A stretch of 24,766 bases of DNA, from IMG/VR virus record IMGVR_UViG_3300046506_000197, positions 1 to 24,766 of that record; one strand, given 5' to 3'. The notes under the pieces were generated by a model. It was not told where the DNA came from and did no database searches. It saw nothing but the letters and a program-made list of their open reading frames with translations. Of this stretch, positions 2,684 to 17,451 are shown piece by piece. The position numbers and the translations under genes are program-made. This stretch comes from a virus. The stretch's first letter is position 1, and each line of letters starts with the position of its first letter.

Positions 2684-3855
2684 TGGATGGCCACCGTCAG
2701 TTTGTTGATCCGGGGGATGCTCAGCCCGCTGACGATGTCGTCCGCCGGCGTAATGCGCAGCGACTCGATGTCAGGGAACTGGCCGTGCAGTTCCTCGATC
2801 AACCGACTGAAACTGAACCGCGACTGGGGAAAGGTCAGCGTCGGTCGGTAGTCGCGGGGTGTGCTTTCGCGAAAGGCCGCACGCACGAACAGCTCGGCTT
2901 CTTTTTCCAGCGTGCTGATCTGATCAGCACTGAGGTTGGGACGCGGCCAGACGTTGACCTGGATAGTCGCTTGGGTTTCCGGCATGACCATGGCCAACAA
3001 GTCATCCCCATGGCCATGGTTACCACCGTCGCGGATGTGGGCGTTGATCTGCTCCAGGTACGAATCAGCCGGGACGCCGGCGTCGAATAGCACATAAGCG
3101 TTCGCACTGCCCGGTCCACGGGGTGCTCCGTGTTCGAAGTACACGCCGTCTGGCCGCACACCCGGGAAGGCGGAAATCATGGCGCGATACACTGCGTCGG
3201 TGTGCCATTGGTTGACCGCCGAGAACTGGTTGCGCACACGCAGACGCAGCTGGTCGTTGGGCTCGGGATCTGCACCAGGTGATTCCAGCCAGCCGTCACT
3301 GTTCACCACCTGGACGATGCCAGGCACGGGCAACGGAAGGATGGCGTAGTAACCCGGGGCCAGGTTGAAGCCGCTGCCAGCCTCGATCGCTTTCACCGGG
3401 ACTTCCAGCTGCAACTGGCCCTCCTGAAAGGTCGCGGCAGCCGTAGAAATCAGTTGATAGACGTTGCCGTTGATCGCAGCCGACTGCACCACGATGCCCT
3501 GTTTCAGCTCCATGGCACCGTCCGGCGTGGCCCGGGTAAATAGCAACGTGCCCTTGGCTTTCGTCGCGCCCTTGCGCTCGACGTTGACCGCCCAGGCGAG
3601 CATGTCCAGCCAGGCGTCCACCGCCGTTTTCACAAAGAAGTTCGGCAACACGGTCAGGCACAGGAAGTCGAGCAACCACATCACCGGCTTGGTAACCAGG
3701 GCGGTCATCACCCGCCAGAACGGCGAGTAGCTGCTGGTGTTGGCTACCTTGGCGCCTTGGGCCTCGACCTCTTTTTCCCACGCGGCCTTCAGATCGGCTT
3801 CGGTGGTCGGAATGCCGGCGTCGGCGATCACCTTTTTAAAATCAACCTCGCTCAC
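2680..3855 (-). CDS. J: Baseplate assembly protein J
   Basis: A 391-residue baseplate J-like protein (GpJ/Mu gp47 family), part of the wedge at the rim of the baseplate. Visible family features are the segment DAWLDMLAWAVNVERKGATKAKGTLLFTR near residues 80-110, the hydrophobic strand-rich core with AGSGFNLAPGYYAIL (about 158-172), the ESPGADPEPNDQLRLRVRNQF block (about 191-211), typical of baseplate J proteins, and the C-terminal FSFSRLIEELHGQFPDIESLRI. The start is GTG 3855, overlapping the stop of the DUF2590 gene as GTGA, with GAGG seven bases upstream inside that gene. Length and neighbours fit GpJ-type proteins, though it is longer than P2 GpJ (about 300 aa). Confidence 0.93.
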   Translation of the reverse strand: MSEVDFKKVIADAGIPTTEADLKAAWEKEVEAQGAKVANTSSYSPFWRVMTALVTKPVMWLLDFLCLTVLPNFFVKTAVDAWLDMLAWAVNVERKGATKAKGTLLFTRATPDGAMELKQGIVVQSAAINGNVYQLISTAAATFQEGQLQLEVPVKAIEAGSGFNLAPGYYAILPLPVPGIVQVVNSDGWLESPGADPEPNDQLRLRVRNQFSAVNQWHTDAVYRAMISAFPGVRPDGVYFEHGAPRGPGSANAYVLFDAGVPADSYLEQINAHIRDGGNHGHGDDLLAMVMPETQATIQVNVWPRPNLSADQISTLEKEAELFVRAAFRESTPRDYRPTLTFPQSRFSFSRLIEELHGQFPDIESLRITPADDIVSGLSIPRINKLTVAIQ

Positions 3856-9761: not shown

Positions 9762-10442
9762 TTAGCGGGGTGAAGTTAGGATTTGCTGAAAGACCTGGTT
9801 AACCAGTTCGCGGGTTTCGTTGCCGCTCCCTACGCCGAGGAACTGGCGTTTTGGCAGGGTGATGTCCCAGCTTTGTGCGCCTGATGTCTCGGTTTTCTCA
9901 TCGTTCAAAATGCGGATCAGCAGACCGGCCTTGGCGTAGTTCACGTGTTCTTGAATCCACGCGACTGACGGCCTGGTCAGCGTTTTTTTGCCTTTCTGCC
10001 GGGTGCGGAATCCCAGACGGCGCAAGCGCTTGGCCTGCTTGTCAGTGCATGCGATACCCGGCGGCACTCGGTTCCAGCGCTTCATCTGCGCAGCGGTGCG
10101 CCGTTCGGTGACGCCGTTGTGTTGTTGCGTGGCGACCCAACGCGTGAGGGCGTTTTTCCAGCCCAGCTCCGCTTCGTCCGCACTGACCCGCGTGACTTGC
10201 AGCAGCTTGGTCAGGCCGGCTTCCATCTTCTTTTTGCCCTTGGCGGGCCCCTTGCGATCGGCAAAGGGCGAACCGTCCAGATTCTTCTGTTCACGTACCC
10301 GCTGGCGGCCCATCGAGCGCACACGCTTGGTCACGTTGTTCAGCAGCCGCCGGCGCAGTTGGGGCCGCAACTCAAGCAACGCCAGTTGGGCGTCAACGCT
10401 GAGTAAGCCCCTGACATCGAGGTCGCACGGACTAGTGGTCAC
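9762..10442 (-). CDS. S: Tail completion protein S (phage virion morphogenesis)
   Basis: A 226-residue product if translated from GTG 10442 (VTTSPCDLDVRGLLSVDAQL), chosen because GAGGTG lies nine bases upstream and the start overlaps the end of R by 11 bases. The open frame continues 55 codons further upstream inside R without a start that fits. Features of the GpS family (PF05069-like) are the Arg-rich helix LRPQLRRRLLNNVTKRVRSM, then RQRVREQKNLDGSPFADRKG (cf. Q-x-P-D-G-T-P-Y-A-x-R-K in P2 S) and a Lys-rich patch KGPAKGKKKM. GpS, with GpR, completes tails and joins them to heads. It is longer than P2 S (150 aa), chiefly in the middle and at the C-terminus. Confidence 0.87.
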   Translation of the reverse strand: MTTSPCDLDVRGLLSVDAQLALLELRPQLRRRLLNNVTKRVRSMGRQRVREQKNLDGSPFADRKGPAKGKKKMEAGLTKLLQVTRVSADEAELGWKNALTRWVATQQHNGVTERRTAAQMKRWNRVPPGIACTDKQAKRLRRLGFRTRQKGKKTLTRPSVAWIQEHVNYAKAGLLIRILNDEKTETSGAQSWDITLPKRQFLGVGSGNETRELVNQVFQQILTSPR

Positions 10443-10881
10443 CGCTGCCCACCTCGCCGCGTTCAGCAACCCACAGATCGAACGGCACAAAGGACCAGGT
10501 CTTGCCGTGGGCCTCGATCTCGCCGGCAGGGTCTTCGGCCAGGTATTGCGGCTCGACGAATTCCAGGGTGATGTCCACGTCGAACAGATCGTTGTCCAGC
10601 GGTTCAACGGCGAACAGCGGTGCCGGCAATTCGTGGCGGTCGCGGTGGGTGTCGTGGTTTTCGAGCCAGCTCCCGACCAGGGCCATCAGCCGCCCCGGAT
10701 GATCGGCGAAGCGCTCCAGCAAAATCGCGGCGCGATAGCGCATGTCGGCCATGTGCATGCCGTCCACGTCGGGCTTCCAGATGAGTTCGAGCGTGACCTG
10801 TTCGGTCCAGCTATCGAGCTGCTCGGCGGGCACCAGTTGGCGTTCCAACAGGTAGCGAGTCAGTGTCTGGAGTTTGATCAC
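10432..10881 (-). CDS. R: Tail completion protein R
   Basis: A 149-residue protein beginning MIKLQTLTRYLLERQLVPAEQLDSWTEQ, close to the GpR family of P2-like tail completion proteins (P2 R is 155 residues). The middle (MADMRYRAAILLERFADHPGRLMALVGSWLENHDTHRD) and the ending with VEPLDNDLFDVDITLEFVEPQYL are typical. The ATG at 10881 overlaps the stop of L (ATGA), and the stop overlaps the GTG of S, so L, R and S are coupled. In P2 the X, Y, K and lys genes separate L from R; here L and R are adjacent. Confidence 0.93.
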   Translation of the reverse strand: MIKLQTLTRYLLERQLVPAEQLDSWTEQVTLELIWKPDVDGMHMADMRYRAAILLERFADHPGRLMALVGSWLENHDTHRDRHELPAPLFAVEPLDNDLFDVDITLEFVEPQYLAEDPAGEIEAHGKTWSFVPFDLWVAERGEVGSGDH

Positions 10882-13180: not shown

Positions 13181-14107
13181 TCAGAGCACCCGCGCTTTGG
13201 TTTTATCGGTTGCGCCGGTGGTGCGCGGCAACGGACGACCGGTGGTGGTGTTTTGCAGCGTGCTGAACTGTTTGGAAAGGTTCGATAGGGCTGCCAGCAC
13301 GGCTTTGTTCGTTGCGCCGCCGTTGCGACTGAATTCGCGCTCTTCTTCGGCCGTGGTGACGATCGCGTCCACTGCTGCGCTCACATCATCAATCGGGGCT
13401 TGTTCGGGTTCGGGTGCTTCTGCGGCAGCAGGCTCAATCACAGCCTGGATGCCGGCAGCGACGACCAGTAGTTGCGCCAGCAGGGCTTTCAAAGCCGTTG
13501 CGGTAGCTTCATCCATTGGGGGTTTGCTCTCGGTAGGGGTTTGCGGGGGGGTATCGGTGGGGCTGTCTTCCGCGCCGAAGCGCTTGAAGAAACCAGTGAG
13601 CAATGCGGTCAGCTTGCCCAGCTCGCCTTTGGGCTCGGTTTCGCTAAAGGTGCCCAGCTCAACAGAAGACGCGAAGTACGAGTTCCGGCTGGTACGGCTG
13701 GAAAAGTAGAGTTCCTGAGTGCCGGTGCTGGCGGGCTCGTCAGTGACCGCGATACCGGTCATGTAGGCTTTGCCACGGCCACGGAAATTCGGGCGAATCT
13801 CAATGCTGGTGAAGACCTTTTCCCCGGCGTCGTTCAGGCGCAGCAACTTATCGTTGGGCTTCAACTGCGCTTCAAGGGCGACTTGGCCAGGTTCCAGATC
13901 CTCGGCGTCCTCGATCAGACGGACAGCGAAAACCGTCCCGTGAGATCCGAACCAGCGGTCGTGTTCACACCAGATAACGGCGGTGTACAACGTCGGGTTG
14001 TAGGTTTCCGCGATGTCGCGCAGTTCCTGGGGCAGGATCTCGCGGCCATCAACGGTCGGACCGCTGCTGGCAACACGTTTCCAGTAGGAGACAAGAGAAC
14101 GGGGCAT
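13181..14107 (-). CDS. O: Capsid scaffolding protein and prohead protease (GpO)
   Basis: A 308-residue GpO-type protein, first gene of the late operon. I start it at ATG 14107 (MPRSLVSYWKRVASSGPTVDG); the frame is open back to 14167 but there is no P2-like sequence there. The serine protease residues of P2 GpO (Asp19, His48, Ser107) align with D20 (TVDG), H49 (CEHD) and S101 (VFTSIEI) here, and GIAVTDEPASTGTQELYF follows as in P2. The C-terminal half is long, acidic and Ala/Pro/Thr-rich (about 150-250), then a helix that should act as the scaffold. Processing by this protease matures capsid and connector. Ribosome site before the ATG is poor. Confidence 0.93.
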   Translation of the reverse strand: MPRSLVSYWKRVASSGPTVDGREILPQELRDIAETYNPTLYTAVIWCEHDRWFGSHGTVFAVRLIEDAEDLEPGQVALEAQLKPNDKLLRLNDAGEKVFTSIEIRPNFRGRGKAYMTGIAVTDEPASTGTQELYFSSRTSRNSYFASSVELGTFSETEPKGELGKLTALLTGFFKRFGAEDSPTDTPPQTPTESKPPMDEATATALKALLAQLLVVAAGIQAVIEPAAAEAPEPEQAPIDDVSAAVDAIVTTAEEEREFSRNGGATNKAVLAALSNLSKQFSTLQNTTTGRPLPRTTGATDKTKARVL

Positions 14108-14268
14108 GAAAGTAACTGCGCTCAATCGTTGAATGAGCCGCCACGATAGGGAGCCGTTTGCCCCCAAACAAACGCTTTACTACGGGCCCATTCGTAGAAC
14201 TTCCTTCCACGAATAACGCCGCATTTACCCCCGCGTTTCCCGAGTTTTCGCCGCATAGACTGCGGCCC
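14108..14268. promoter_or_regulatory. Divergent late promoter region between O and P, with a 20-bp dyad
   Basis: This 161-base gap separates the leftward late operon from the rightward P-Q-ogr operon, where P2 has PO and PP, controlled by Ogr. No P2 box (TGT-N12-ACA) is present. Instead ATTCGTAGAA (14190-14199) and TTCCACGAAT (14205-14214) form a near-perfect dyad (9 of 10 pairs, 5-base spacer). TATCGT on the minus strand (+ positions 14143-14148) and TAGACT on the plus strand (14256-14261) are equally distant (56-57 bases) from the dyad centre and might be -10 boxes. I take the dyad as candidate activator site; the promoters are weak matches. Confidence 0.55.
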
Positions 14269-16308
14269 ATGAACTACCCGACCGAAGTAAAAGAAGCCGC
14301 AAAACGCCTGTACCTGCGTCGTTGTTCGGTGAAGGAAATCCAGGCGCATTTAAAGCTGCCCAACATCCGCATCGTCTATTACTGGATCCGCCAAGGATGC
14401 TGGGACGAGATGCTGACGGACGAGGAACCGCTGACCGCCATCAGCCGGCGGATCACCCTGATCCTGGAGAAGATCGACACGCTGACCAAGGGCGAACTCG
14501 ACGAACTGGAGCGCCTGACCACCCTGCGCGAACGTCTGATTAAGCAGTCGTCGAAGCCCGCGCCGGCGGCGCCGTCCGAAAGTTCGGACGAGCCCCGGGA
14601 ACGCCCCTCAAGCCAGCGCCGCGATCGGGGCGACAGCGGCGGTAAGAAGCGAGAAAAGAAGGTCAAGAACGACATCAGTGGCCTCACCGAAGTGGACTTT
14701 CTGGATAAGTTCATCTCCAAGATGTACGGCTACCAGAAGGAGCTATTCGAAGCGAAACAAAACCCGCTGACGCGACGGGTCCGCAACATCCTGAAAAGCC
14801 GGCAGGTCGGCCTGACCTACTACTTCGCCGGCGAAGCGTTCATGGACGCCGTGCTGAGCGGCGATAACCAGGTGTTCCTGTCCGCCAGCCGCTCGCAGTC
14901 GGAGATCTTCCGCAGCTACATCATCCAGTTCGCCCAACAGTGGTTCGGCATAGAACTAACCGGCAACCCCATCACGCTCAGCAACGGCGCCGAACTGCGC
15001 TTCCTCAGTACCAACAGCAGCACTGCCCAGGGCTATCACGGCCACGTCTACGTGGACGAATATTTCTGGATTCGCGACTTCGAAAAACTGAGCACCGTGG
15101 CCAGCGCCATGGGCACCCACAAGAAATGGCGCAAAACCTATTTCTCGACGCCTAGTGCGGTGTCGCACCAGGCCTACCCGTTCTGGTCGGGCGAAGAGTT
15201 TCGCAACAGCAAACGCGGCAAAAAGGCTGGTGGTGTGTGGCCCACTGAATCGGCCTACACGCAAGGCGCGCTGTGTCCAGACGGCCAGTGGCGCAAGACC
15301 ATTACCCTGGATGATGCCATTGCCGGCGGCTGCAATCTGTTCGACCTCGAGCAACTGCAGCTGGAGTACGACGAGGACAAGTTTCAGCAACTGTTCTACT
15401 GCAAATTCATCGACAGCACCCAGAGCGCATTCAGCCTCAAGGACCTGGAACGCTGCTACTCCGACCTATCGTTGTGGGAAGACTACAACCCGGAACTGGA
15501 TCGGCCGTTCGGCAACAGCCCGGTCTGGCTGGGCTACGACCCGAGCCGCACCCGCGACGACTCCACCTGTGTGGTCATCGCGCCGCCGCTCGAACCCGGG
15601 GCGAAATTCCGCATCCTCGAGAAGCACAGCTGGCGTGGGCACTCGTTCACCCACCAAGCCGCCCAGGTCAAGAAGCTGACCGAACGTTTCAACGTGCAAC
15701 ACATCGGCATCGACGTCACCGGCGTGGGCCACGGTGTGTTCGACCTGGTGCGCGACTTCTACGCCAAGGCGACGCCCATTCACTACAGCCTTGAGGCCAA
15801 GAACACTCTGGTACTCAAGGCCCAGGACACGATTCAAGGCAGCCGCATCGAATGGGACGCGGGCTGGACGGACATCGCCCAGGCCTTCCTGACGATCAAG
15901 CGTGGCGCCACCACCAGCGGCCAGATCACGTACAGCGCTTCGCGCACCGACGCGACCGGTCACGCCGACATCGCCTGGGCGGTCATGCACGCCCTGGCCA
16001 ACGAACCCCTAAACACCAACAAGCGGCGCCGTAGCCGCTACGTGACGAGCACCCACAGCAGCCATGGCCAACAAACGCAGAAAACCACCGCAAGTTCCAA
16101 GACCACAGCAGCCCATGCGGGCCTTCACGTTCGGGGAGCCCGAGCAGGTGCTGTCCGGCAACATCGGCGAGTACGTGGGGGTGTTCCCCAGCGACGACGG
16201 CAAGATCTACAAGCCACCGGTGTCACGTGTCGGCCTGGCCAAGCTGTTGCGCGCCAACGCGCACCACGGCGCCATTCCGAAGTTCAAGCGCAACCTGCTG
16301 TTGCGTGA
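14269..16308 (+). CDS. P: Terminase large subunit (GpP), C-terminus running into the portal gene
   Basis: ATPase/nuclease that drives DNA into the prohead. ATG 14269 (MNYPTEVKEAAKRLYLRRCS) gives 679 residues. Visible: an N-terminal helix-turn-helix with KEIQAHLKL and YYWIRQGCWDE (about 20-48); an acidic/basic linker (95-135); ATPase motif KSRQVGLTYYFA with Walker A-like 178-185; Walker B HVYVDEYFW (259-267); and nuclease acidic residues D424 (LGYDPSRTRDDS), D482 (GIDVTG) and D567 (GHADIAW). P2 P has about 590 residues. Here the coding frame overlaps the portal by 245 bases, adding roughly 80 Arg-rich residues with no family likeness after RRRSRY (residue 591). Expect either a real extension or an indel that lost the normal stop. 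Confidence 0.92.
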   Translation: MNYPTEVKEAAKRLYLRRCSVKEIQAHLKLPNIRIVYYWIRQGCWDEMLTDEEPLTAISRRITLILEKIDTLTKGELDELERLTTLRERLIKQSSKPAPAAPSESSDEPRERPSSQRRDRGDSGGKKREKKVKNDISGLTEVDFLDKFISKMYGYQKELFEAKQNPLTRRVRNILKSRQVGLTYYFAGEAFMDAVLSGDNQVFLSASRSQSEIFRSYIIQFAQQWFGIELTGNPITLSNGAELRFLSTNSSTAQGYHGHVYVDEYFWIRDFEKLSTVASAMGTHKKWRKTYFSTPSAVSHQAYPFWSGEEFRNSKRGKKAGGVWPTESAYTQGALCPDGQWRKTITLDDAIAGGCNLFDLEQLQLEYDEDKFQQLFYCKFIDSTQSAFSLKDLERCYSDLSLWEDYNPELDRPFGNSPVWLGYDPSRTRDDSTCVVIAPPLEPGAKFRILEKHSWRGHSFTHQAAQVKKLTERFNVQHIGIDVTGVGHGVFDLVRDFYAKATPIHYSLEAKNTLVLKAQDTIQGSRIEWDAGWTDIAQAFLTIKRGATTSGQITYSASRTDATGHADIAWAVMHALANEPLNTNKRRRSRYVTSTHSSHGQQTQKTTASSKTTAAHAGLHVRGARAGAVRQHRRVRGGVPQRRRQDLQATGVTCRPGQAVARQRAPRRHSEVQAQPAVA

Positions 16309-17098: not shown

Positions 17099-17117
17099 TG
17101 TAGAGATAAGCACTACA
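17099..17117. promoter_or_regulatory. 19-bp dyad upstream of ogr, candidate activator binding site
   Basis: TGTAG (17099-17103) and CTACA (17113-17117) form a perfect 5-bp inverted repeat with a 9-base spacer, in the 73-base gap between Q and ogr. The same geometry GTAG-N9-C(T/C)AC lies at the centre of the O/P dyad, with CGTAG and CCACG. P2 Ogr sites are TGT-N12-ACA dyads; this one is TGT-N13-ACA. A binding site for the phage activator is plausible, perhaps autoregulatory. Short motifs like this occur by chance, so confidence is modest. Confidence 0.45.
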
Positions 17118-17162
17118 CCTTGTGGCAACATGGCGGCGATTAGCTGCCCTGGGGAGGGACAT

Positions 17163-17420
17163 ATGCGAGTGACATGTAAGTGCGGGAACAAGGGATTAAT
17201 CCGGGATAGCAAGCCACAGTCGCCGGATTTTGTGACCCTTTACTGCCAGTGCCTGGACGTCCAGTGCGGGCACACATGGGTGGCCCATTTGACGTTCTCC
17301 CACACGCTGAGCCCATCGGCGCAGACGTTCGACCGGTTGTTGTTTGATCGACTGAGGGAAATGCCCAGGGCGAAACAGAGGGAGTTATTCGAACAGCTCG
17401 GGGCGCAGGCGGTTGCGTGA
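17163..17420 (+). CDS. ogr: Ogr/Delta-like late transcription activator
   Basis: An 85-residue zinc-binding activator of late promoters. ATG 17163 is chosen because GGGAGG precedes it by about six bases; the longer frame upstream overlaps the portal and lacks any fit. The zinc part is MRVTCKCGNKGLIRD with Cys5 and Cys7, then YCQCLDVQCGHTW with Cys28, Cys30 and Cys35. P2 Ogr has C-x2-C-x22-C-x4-C; the C-x-CG and C-x4-C forms here are those of Pseudomonas-type relatives. The C-terminal part (SAQTFDRLLFDRLREMPRAKQRELFEQLG) is helical. Unlike P2, where ogr follows the D gene, ogr here ends the P-Q operon. Confidence 0.88.
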   Translation: MRVTCKCGNKGLIRDSKPQSPDFVTLYCQCLDVQCGHTWVAHLTFSHTLSPSAQTFDRLLFDRLREMPRAKQRELFEQLGAQAVA

Positions 17421-17429
17421 CGCTCAAAC

Positions 17430-17451
17430 CGCCGACTCTGATGTGTCGGCG
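17430..17451 (+). terminator. Hairpin after ogr, possible terminator
   Basis: CGCCGAC and GTCGGCG pair perfectly (7 bp) with an 8-base loop, nine bases past the ogr stop at 17418-17420. No T run follows on either strand, so it would be a weak or Rho-assisted terminator. It lies between the convergent ends of ogr (plus) and the small gene at 17490-17675 (minus) and could serve both. Confidence 0.4.

Follow-up and report, generated by a model that had tools for sequence, protein, structure and literature searches.

A predicted Ogr operator between the divergent late operons of a Pseudomonas P2-like prophage, with a specificity unlike that of P2

The window analysed here, a virus record of 24,766 bases taken at its full length, holds most of a Pseudomonas P2-like prophage with the phi3/K139/HP1 layout, and a short inverted repeat lies between its divergent genes O and P. 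In P2 (NC_001895) one Ogr activator site with dyad symmetry, served by an Ogr_Delta zinc protein, lies between the divergent O and P operons (PMC3931495). Does the dyad of the window play the same part, and for which protein? The original prediction was that it is the recognition site of the phage's own Ogr/Delta protein, with a specificity unlike that of P2, and covariation among relatives strongly supports this claim. We consider it very probable that the dyad is the operator of the late-gene activator Ogr, and we infer both binding and transcription starts from sequence comparison.

The O/P dyad and its gene setting

The genes from O to the tail fibre run leftward in the window (14107 to 631), P and Q run rightward, and ogr follows directly after Q. 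Beyond ogr lie the repressor, the replication genes and the integrase. The features needed at this point are:
13181 to 14107, minus strand: gene O, capsid scaffold/protease, which leads the leftward late operon O-H (Pfam PF05929, 8e-45)
14190 to 14214, no strand: predicted Ogr operator of class A, a 25-bp dyad ATTCGT-N13-ACGAAT with its centre at 14202 (dyad, conservation and covariation)
14269 to 16308, plus strand: gene P, terminase ATPase, which leads the rightward late operon (Pfam PF03237, 1e-46, and PF17289)
17163 to 17420, plus strand: ogr, an 85-aa Ogr/Delta zinc-ribbon activator (Pfam PF04606, 2.7e-11; its class tracks the dyad in 91/91 relatives)

The Ogr match to PF04606 (43.7 bits) is above the curated cut-off of 26.3. 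Two annotation matters concern Q and the region after it. The P frame overlaps Q by 245 nt in another frame (16064-16308), and UFJF_PfPro has a terminase annotation of similar length with the portal start 3' of it; together these suggest that Q starts may be mis-annotated in the P2-like group of the window. In HP1 (L315, NC_001697) an ogr homologue missing from the annotation lies just after Q, at about 10420-10713 on the minus strand (E 6e-20).

The dyad is present as first described, with arms ATTCGTAGAA (14190-14199) and TTCCACGAAT (14205-14214), a spacer of 5 and 9 of 10 pairs; it can also be written ATTCGTAGA-N7-TTCCACGAAT. Its proposed geometry held in part. The pattern YGTAG-N9-CYACR does occur in the window only at 14193-14211 and, as a second dyad before ogr, at 17099-17117 (0.27 matches expected; none of 100 shuffles reached 3). 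The dyad itself stands, but GTAG-N9-CYAC does not, and CGT-N13-ACG within the 25-bp dyad describes the site best. The P2-type pattern TGT-N12-ACA is absent from the O/P gap, as had been stated, and has its sole match in the window at 17444.

Bare symmetry is a poor guide here. Inverted repeats like the O/P dyad number 11 in the window and 4-23 in eight Markov shuffles, so we rejected the idea that the dyad is statistically rare by itself window-wide, although only 0.05 such repeats are expected in the 161-bp gap. What lifts the dyad above chance is its conservation and covariation in relatives.

Two dyad classes that follow Ogr

We gathered relatives of Ogr from genomes and viral contigs and located O and P in each. 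In nearly all Pseudomonas relatives 158-163 bp separate the start codons of O and P, and in the aligned gaps the dyad stands at the same place in 91 of 91 distinct relatives; conservation extends to relatives with a near-identical Ogr, in which it was specifically checked. As found for the window, the dyads of 16 relatives carry CGT-N13-ACG (class A), while those of the other 75 carry CCT-N13-AGG (class B). Class A sites read TCGTAGA-N7-TCTACGA or close to it, and belong to Ogr proteins 79-100% identical to that of the window. Class B sites read TCCTATWT-N5-AWATAGGA, with Ogr proteins mostly 64-78% identical. The right arm in the window departs once from its class pattern (CCACG for CTACG). 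The change from one class to the other comes down to a single base pair in each half-site, 8 bp out from the dyad centre. This pair is complementary in 91/91 relatives (64.6 expected from the columns), being G-C in 16 and C-G in 75. The core CGTA-N11-TACG was found in the gap of 13/17 class A and 0/80 class B loci, and CCTA-N11-TAGG in that of 76/80 class B and 0/17 class A loci; outside the gap the two cores have 8 matches in total in 1.13 Mb.

The class of the dyad equals the class of Ogr in all 91 relatives. Independent contrasts agree in 11 of 11 cases on the O tree (sign test p 0.001) and, over supported branches, in 7 of 7 on the P tree (p 0.016). The dyad class changes once on the Ogr tree, as compared to 12 times on the P tree, 12 on O, 11 on Q, 13 on N, 9 on that of orf61 (61-aa), 10 on HTH, 11 on cro and 10 on the CII-like gene. 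Divergent promoters often carry repressor operators, and genes for the HTH, Cro and 61-aa proteins lie less than 1.5 kb from ogr, so that one of these (a CI-like HTH protein, Cro or the 61-aa protein) might use the dyad to silence the late genes in the lysogen. The 9-11 changes of dyad class on their trees against one on the Ogr tree, together with several relatives that keep the dyad and in which these proteins were not found, make such an operator very unlikely.

The window was also compared with two relatives (L008/L111). Identity is 87% in O, 93% in the gap flanks, 91-92% in P and 87% in Q, but 52% in the dyad and 75% in ogr, and the comparison shows a natural swap of ogr plus dyad. Conversely, the window and three relatives (L001/L083/L099) encode an identical Ogr protein from ogr genes that are 89-90% identical in DNA. 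P2-like prophages recombine often, and joint change of dyad and ogr could in principle be hitch-hiking by block recombination, with no binding involved. We give this next to no probability: P and Q lie between dyad and ogr, yet the class changes 12 and 11 times on their trees, both flanks of the dyad stay 87-93% identical between the window and L008/L111, and the association of site and protein recurs in Vibrio, enterobacterial and other lineages.

Among those lineages, the dyad found 66-70 bp before P reads TTCGG-N13/14-CCGAA in Vibrio, K139-type and enterobacterial relatives, at the same position as in the window, with K15, S/T16 and D25 in the Ogr of the Vibrio/K139 type. Vibrio phage K139, ESSI-2-type phages and HP1 share the plan of the window (divergent O/P, ogr near Q), and the K139 O-P gap is annotated with putative promoters only. 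The contigs L404, L408, L409 and L379 carry CCT-N13-AGG. No clear full dyad was seen at the expected place in phi3-type relatives (Ogr 58-60% identical; A14, T15, R16, K25), nor in some Vibrio relatives, which keep the left half alone; a few of these relatives may be decayed prophages.

A scan for the class A core by DNA alone returned unrelated phages with 3-4 ATCGTAGA-N7-TCTACGAT sites each, of which 5/6 encode Ogr_Delta and two have a site in the gap before a P-like gene. These sites mark a P2-like phage group (L172, L224, L232, L254, L275 and records G001-G006) with 2-4 such dyads in each record, one apparently for each late promoter, and an Ogr_Delta with R14-S-S in 5/6 records. Single matches to the DNA pattern in viral contigs were set aside: multi-copy contigs excepted, most were without Ogr in the stretch examined and look like chance.

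Predicted promoter layout and the dyad before ogr

Hexamers resembling promoter elements are placed symmetrically about the dyad centre, and we name the two predicted late promoters PO and PP:
14143 to 14148, minus strand: -10-like hexamer TATCGT of PO, 54-59 bp from the centre, with a start predicted near 14136 (relatives)
14166 to 14171, minus strand: -35-like hexamer TTGTTT of PO, 31-36 bp from the centre, kept in nearly all of 91 relatives; promoter role predicted
14233 to 14238, plus strand: -35-like hexamer GCGTTT of PP, 31-36 bp from the centre, conserved; promoter role predicted
14256 to 14261, plus strand: -10-like hexamer TAGACT of PP, 54-59 bp from the centre, with a start predicted near 14268 (relatives)

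The spacer between -35-like and -10-like hexamers is 17 bp on each side. The -10-like hexamer of PO reads ACGATA or AAGATA on the plus strand in 92/97 relatives, and TAGACT lies 6-8 nt ahead of the P ATG in 97/97. A consensus scan of the O/P gap returned no ordinary sigma-70 promoter. In the Pseudomonas, Vibrio and enterobacterial lineages the dyad centre keeps a fixed distance of 66-70 bp upstream of the P ATG. Given the symmetry of the hexamers about the dyad centre, both late promoters would be served by a single operator near -66. Since the structural genes follow O with no obvious break, the whole leftward run may be transcribed from PO. From spacing, the predicted PP start falls at the P start codon, and the P (terminase) mRNA is therefore probably leaderless.

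Several smaller features accompany these hexamers. In Vibrio and enterobacterial relatives TATGAT or CATAAT stands 6-7 nt before the P ATG, and by eye a TANNNT-like hexamer is found at this distance in Vibrio, enterobacterial and other relatives. TAGACT itself sits inside a perfect inverted repeat, GCCGCA-TAGAC-TGCGGC (14250-14268), immediately ahead of the P start codon, and 89/97 relatives preserve the stem, once in other letters (GGGGC/GCCCC). The 5' leader predicted for the O message (14108-14142) holds a conserved small stem-loop, GCTCA...TGAGC, without a clear ribosome-binding site.

The dyad could also act as RNA, as a hairpin or attenuator and not as a protein site, and its minus strand does fold well (-14.8 kcal/mol, z -4.1) with complementarity kept. 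The plus strand RNA folds weakly, however (z -1.5), no terminator was found, and an RNA element would not follow the class of Ogr. Because the dyad lies upstream of both -10 hexamers (54-59 bp from its centre), neither late transcript should contain it. We judge an RNA role to be extremely unlikely.

For the dyad as Ogr operator, we propose that one Ogr dimer or two monomers would bind the half-sites TTCGT/ACGAA midway between the two divergent late promoters, neither of which has a good -35 box. Bound at about -66 on each side, Ogr would recruit host RNA polymerase to PO (the O...H operon) and to PP (P-Q), and the first beta-hairpin of its zinc ribbon (residues about 14-25) may read the half-sites. 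On this reading, related phages have many times replaced ogr by a version of another specificity, and each time the operator has changed too. Against it count the relatives without a clear full dyad, the centre at -66 where P2 has -55, and the one departure in the right arm of the window.

The P2 record annotates the activator site at 3057-3087 and the starts at 3016 and 3127, 55-56 bp from both. Like P2 Ogr and P4 Delta sites, the site in the window pairs an Ogr_Delta zinc protein with a single dyad between O and P, but the half-site is TTCGT with an N13 spacer, whereas that of P2 is TGT in TGT-N12-ACA. The centre lies at about -66 from the predicted starts as compared to about -55 in P2, an 11-bp offset that is about one helical turn; the O/P dyad of the window does not fit the P2 consensus TGT-N12-ACA centred near -55. 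The window apparently has one site while P2 has four late promoters, the first zinc knuckle is CX1C and not the CX2C of P2, ogr adjoins Q unlike in P2, and the P mRNA probably has no leader where that of P2 is about 23 nt. On this comparison the O/P dyad would work like a P2 Ogr box but is not one by its letters. In the Ralstonia phages phiRSA1 and phiRSY1, which have an Ogr homologue, a late motif TGTTGT-N13-ACAACA lies ahead of the late operons (PMC5694545). Its 25-bp geometry (6+13+6) is identical to that of the window and its half-site letters differ; there are four sites per genome, and the paper does not tie the motif to Ogr by covariation (PMC5694545).

The original prediction took the second dyad, TGTAG-N9-CTACA (17099-17117), for a further Ogr site. 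It is literally there, but its left arm is unconserved even where Ogr is 100% identical, and just 3 of 134 relatives (Ogr identity at least 60%, the window counted in) have YGTAG-N9-CYACR upstream of their ogr. One variant, CGTAG-N9-CTACA, lies upstream of ogr in a relative with an identical Ogr (L084). That variant and the copy in the window would fit an Ogr that binds here and regulates itself, which we nonetheless consider very unlikely given this distribution. The right arm CACTACA is not class-specific, since class B phages have it too; it belongs to a conserved element, CAC-N8-GTG in 77/134 relatives and CCAC-N8-GTGG in 65/134, that overlaps a sigma-70-like promoter (TTGCCA-N16-TATAGT in a number of relatives). 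The window copies of both element and promoter are degenerate. The second dyad is probably chance on top of the ogr promoter. Many relatives keep TTGCCAC-N8-GTGGCAA before ogr, overlapping the promoter -35 (window 17099-17140), possibly the operator of another regulator.

Ogr residues, specificity and possible insulation of prophages

At residues 14, 15, 17, 19 and 25 of Ogr, class A and class B have no amino acid in common. All five lie in one beta-hairpin, encoded as follows:
17202 to 17237, plus strand: codons of Ogr residues 14-25, beta-hairpin with all five class-separating residues (alignment and model)

The AlphaFold2 model of Ogr (mean pLDDT 85, 93-95 over residues 1-40, pTM 0.52) places the strands of this hairpin at 10-20 and 23-30, and its two helices beyond residue 50 do not distinguish the classes. 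Of the zinc motif C-X2-C-X22-C-X4-C, X22 and X4 fit, and the first knuckle is C5-K-C7 (CX1C), while other relatives keep CX2C; among 67 relatives C7, C30 and C35 are invariant and C5 nearly so. A Foldseek search with the model returned nothing below E 0.1, and the sequence profile of Ogr gave a weak match only, to the RPB9 C-terminal zinc ribbon (E 5e-4).

The simplest rule that would relate residues to sites, as a correlation, is a basic residue at 16 or 25 with CCT and none with a middle G. It covers 89 site calls with basic/CCT and 69 with no basic/middle G, lineages pooled, and was formed after viewing the same data, in which several residues change together per lineage. Six of 164 automatic site calls have off-pattern triplets (TTC, TTT, CGC, TGT); in the single one inspected (TGT, L404-type) a CCT-N13-AGG dyad overlaps. 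Residue 14 as sole determinant (Arg with G) was rejected because L379 has R14 with CCT, and basic 16/25 fits better. Residues 16 and 25 vary separately in natural variants: S16 K25 in L158/L154, R16 N25 in L408, and R14 R16 K25 in L379.

In the literature covered, which leaves the older P2/186/P4 biochemistry outside, DNA choice by Ogr/Delta zinc proteins is unsettled, and sites outside P2 were assigned by likeness to TGT-N12-ACA. The more than 150 natural protein-site pairs, drawn from several lineages, supply a register, a rule for the distance and candidate contact residues. The O/P dyad is a specificity variant of a known late-gene switch, with an unusually clean coevolution record. We propose tentatively, at a little short of even confidence, that HP1/K139/phi3-like P2 relatives preserve in their O/P operators a natural record of a simple Ogr recognition code, in which a zinc-ribbon hairpin with basic 16/25 specifies C in mid half-site (AGG on the other strand) and one with S/T16 and a non-basic 25 specifies G, and that repeated joint swaps of ogr and operator would keep co-resident prophages and satellites from responding to one another's late activator. 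Both Ogr classes occur in one genome in Pseudomonas sp. TH31 (L003/L016) and in P. violetae TNT19 (L052/L007/L012), as expected if the classes insulate co-resident prophages, in two genomes only. The joint swapping of ogr and operator suggests selection against cross-activation between related prophages.
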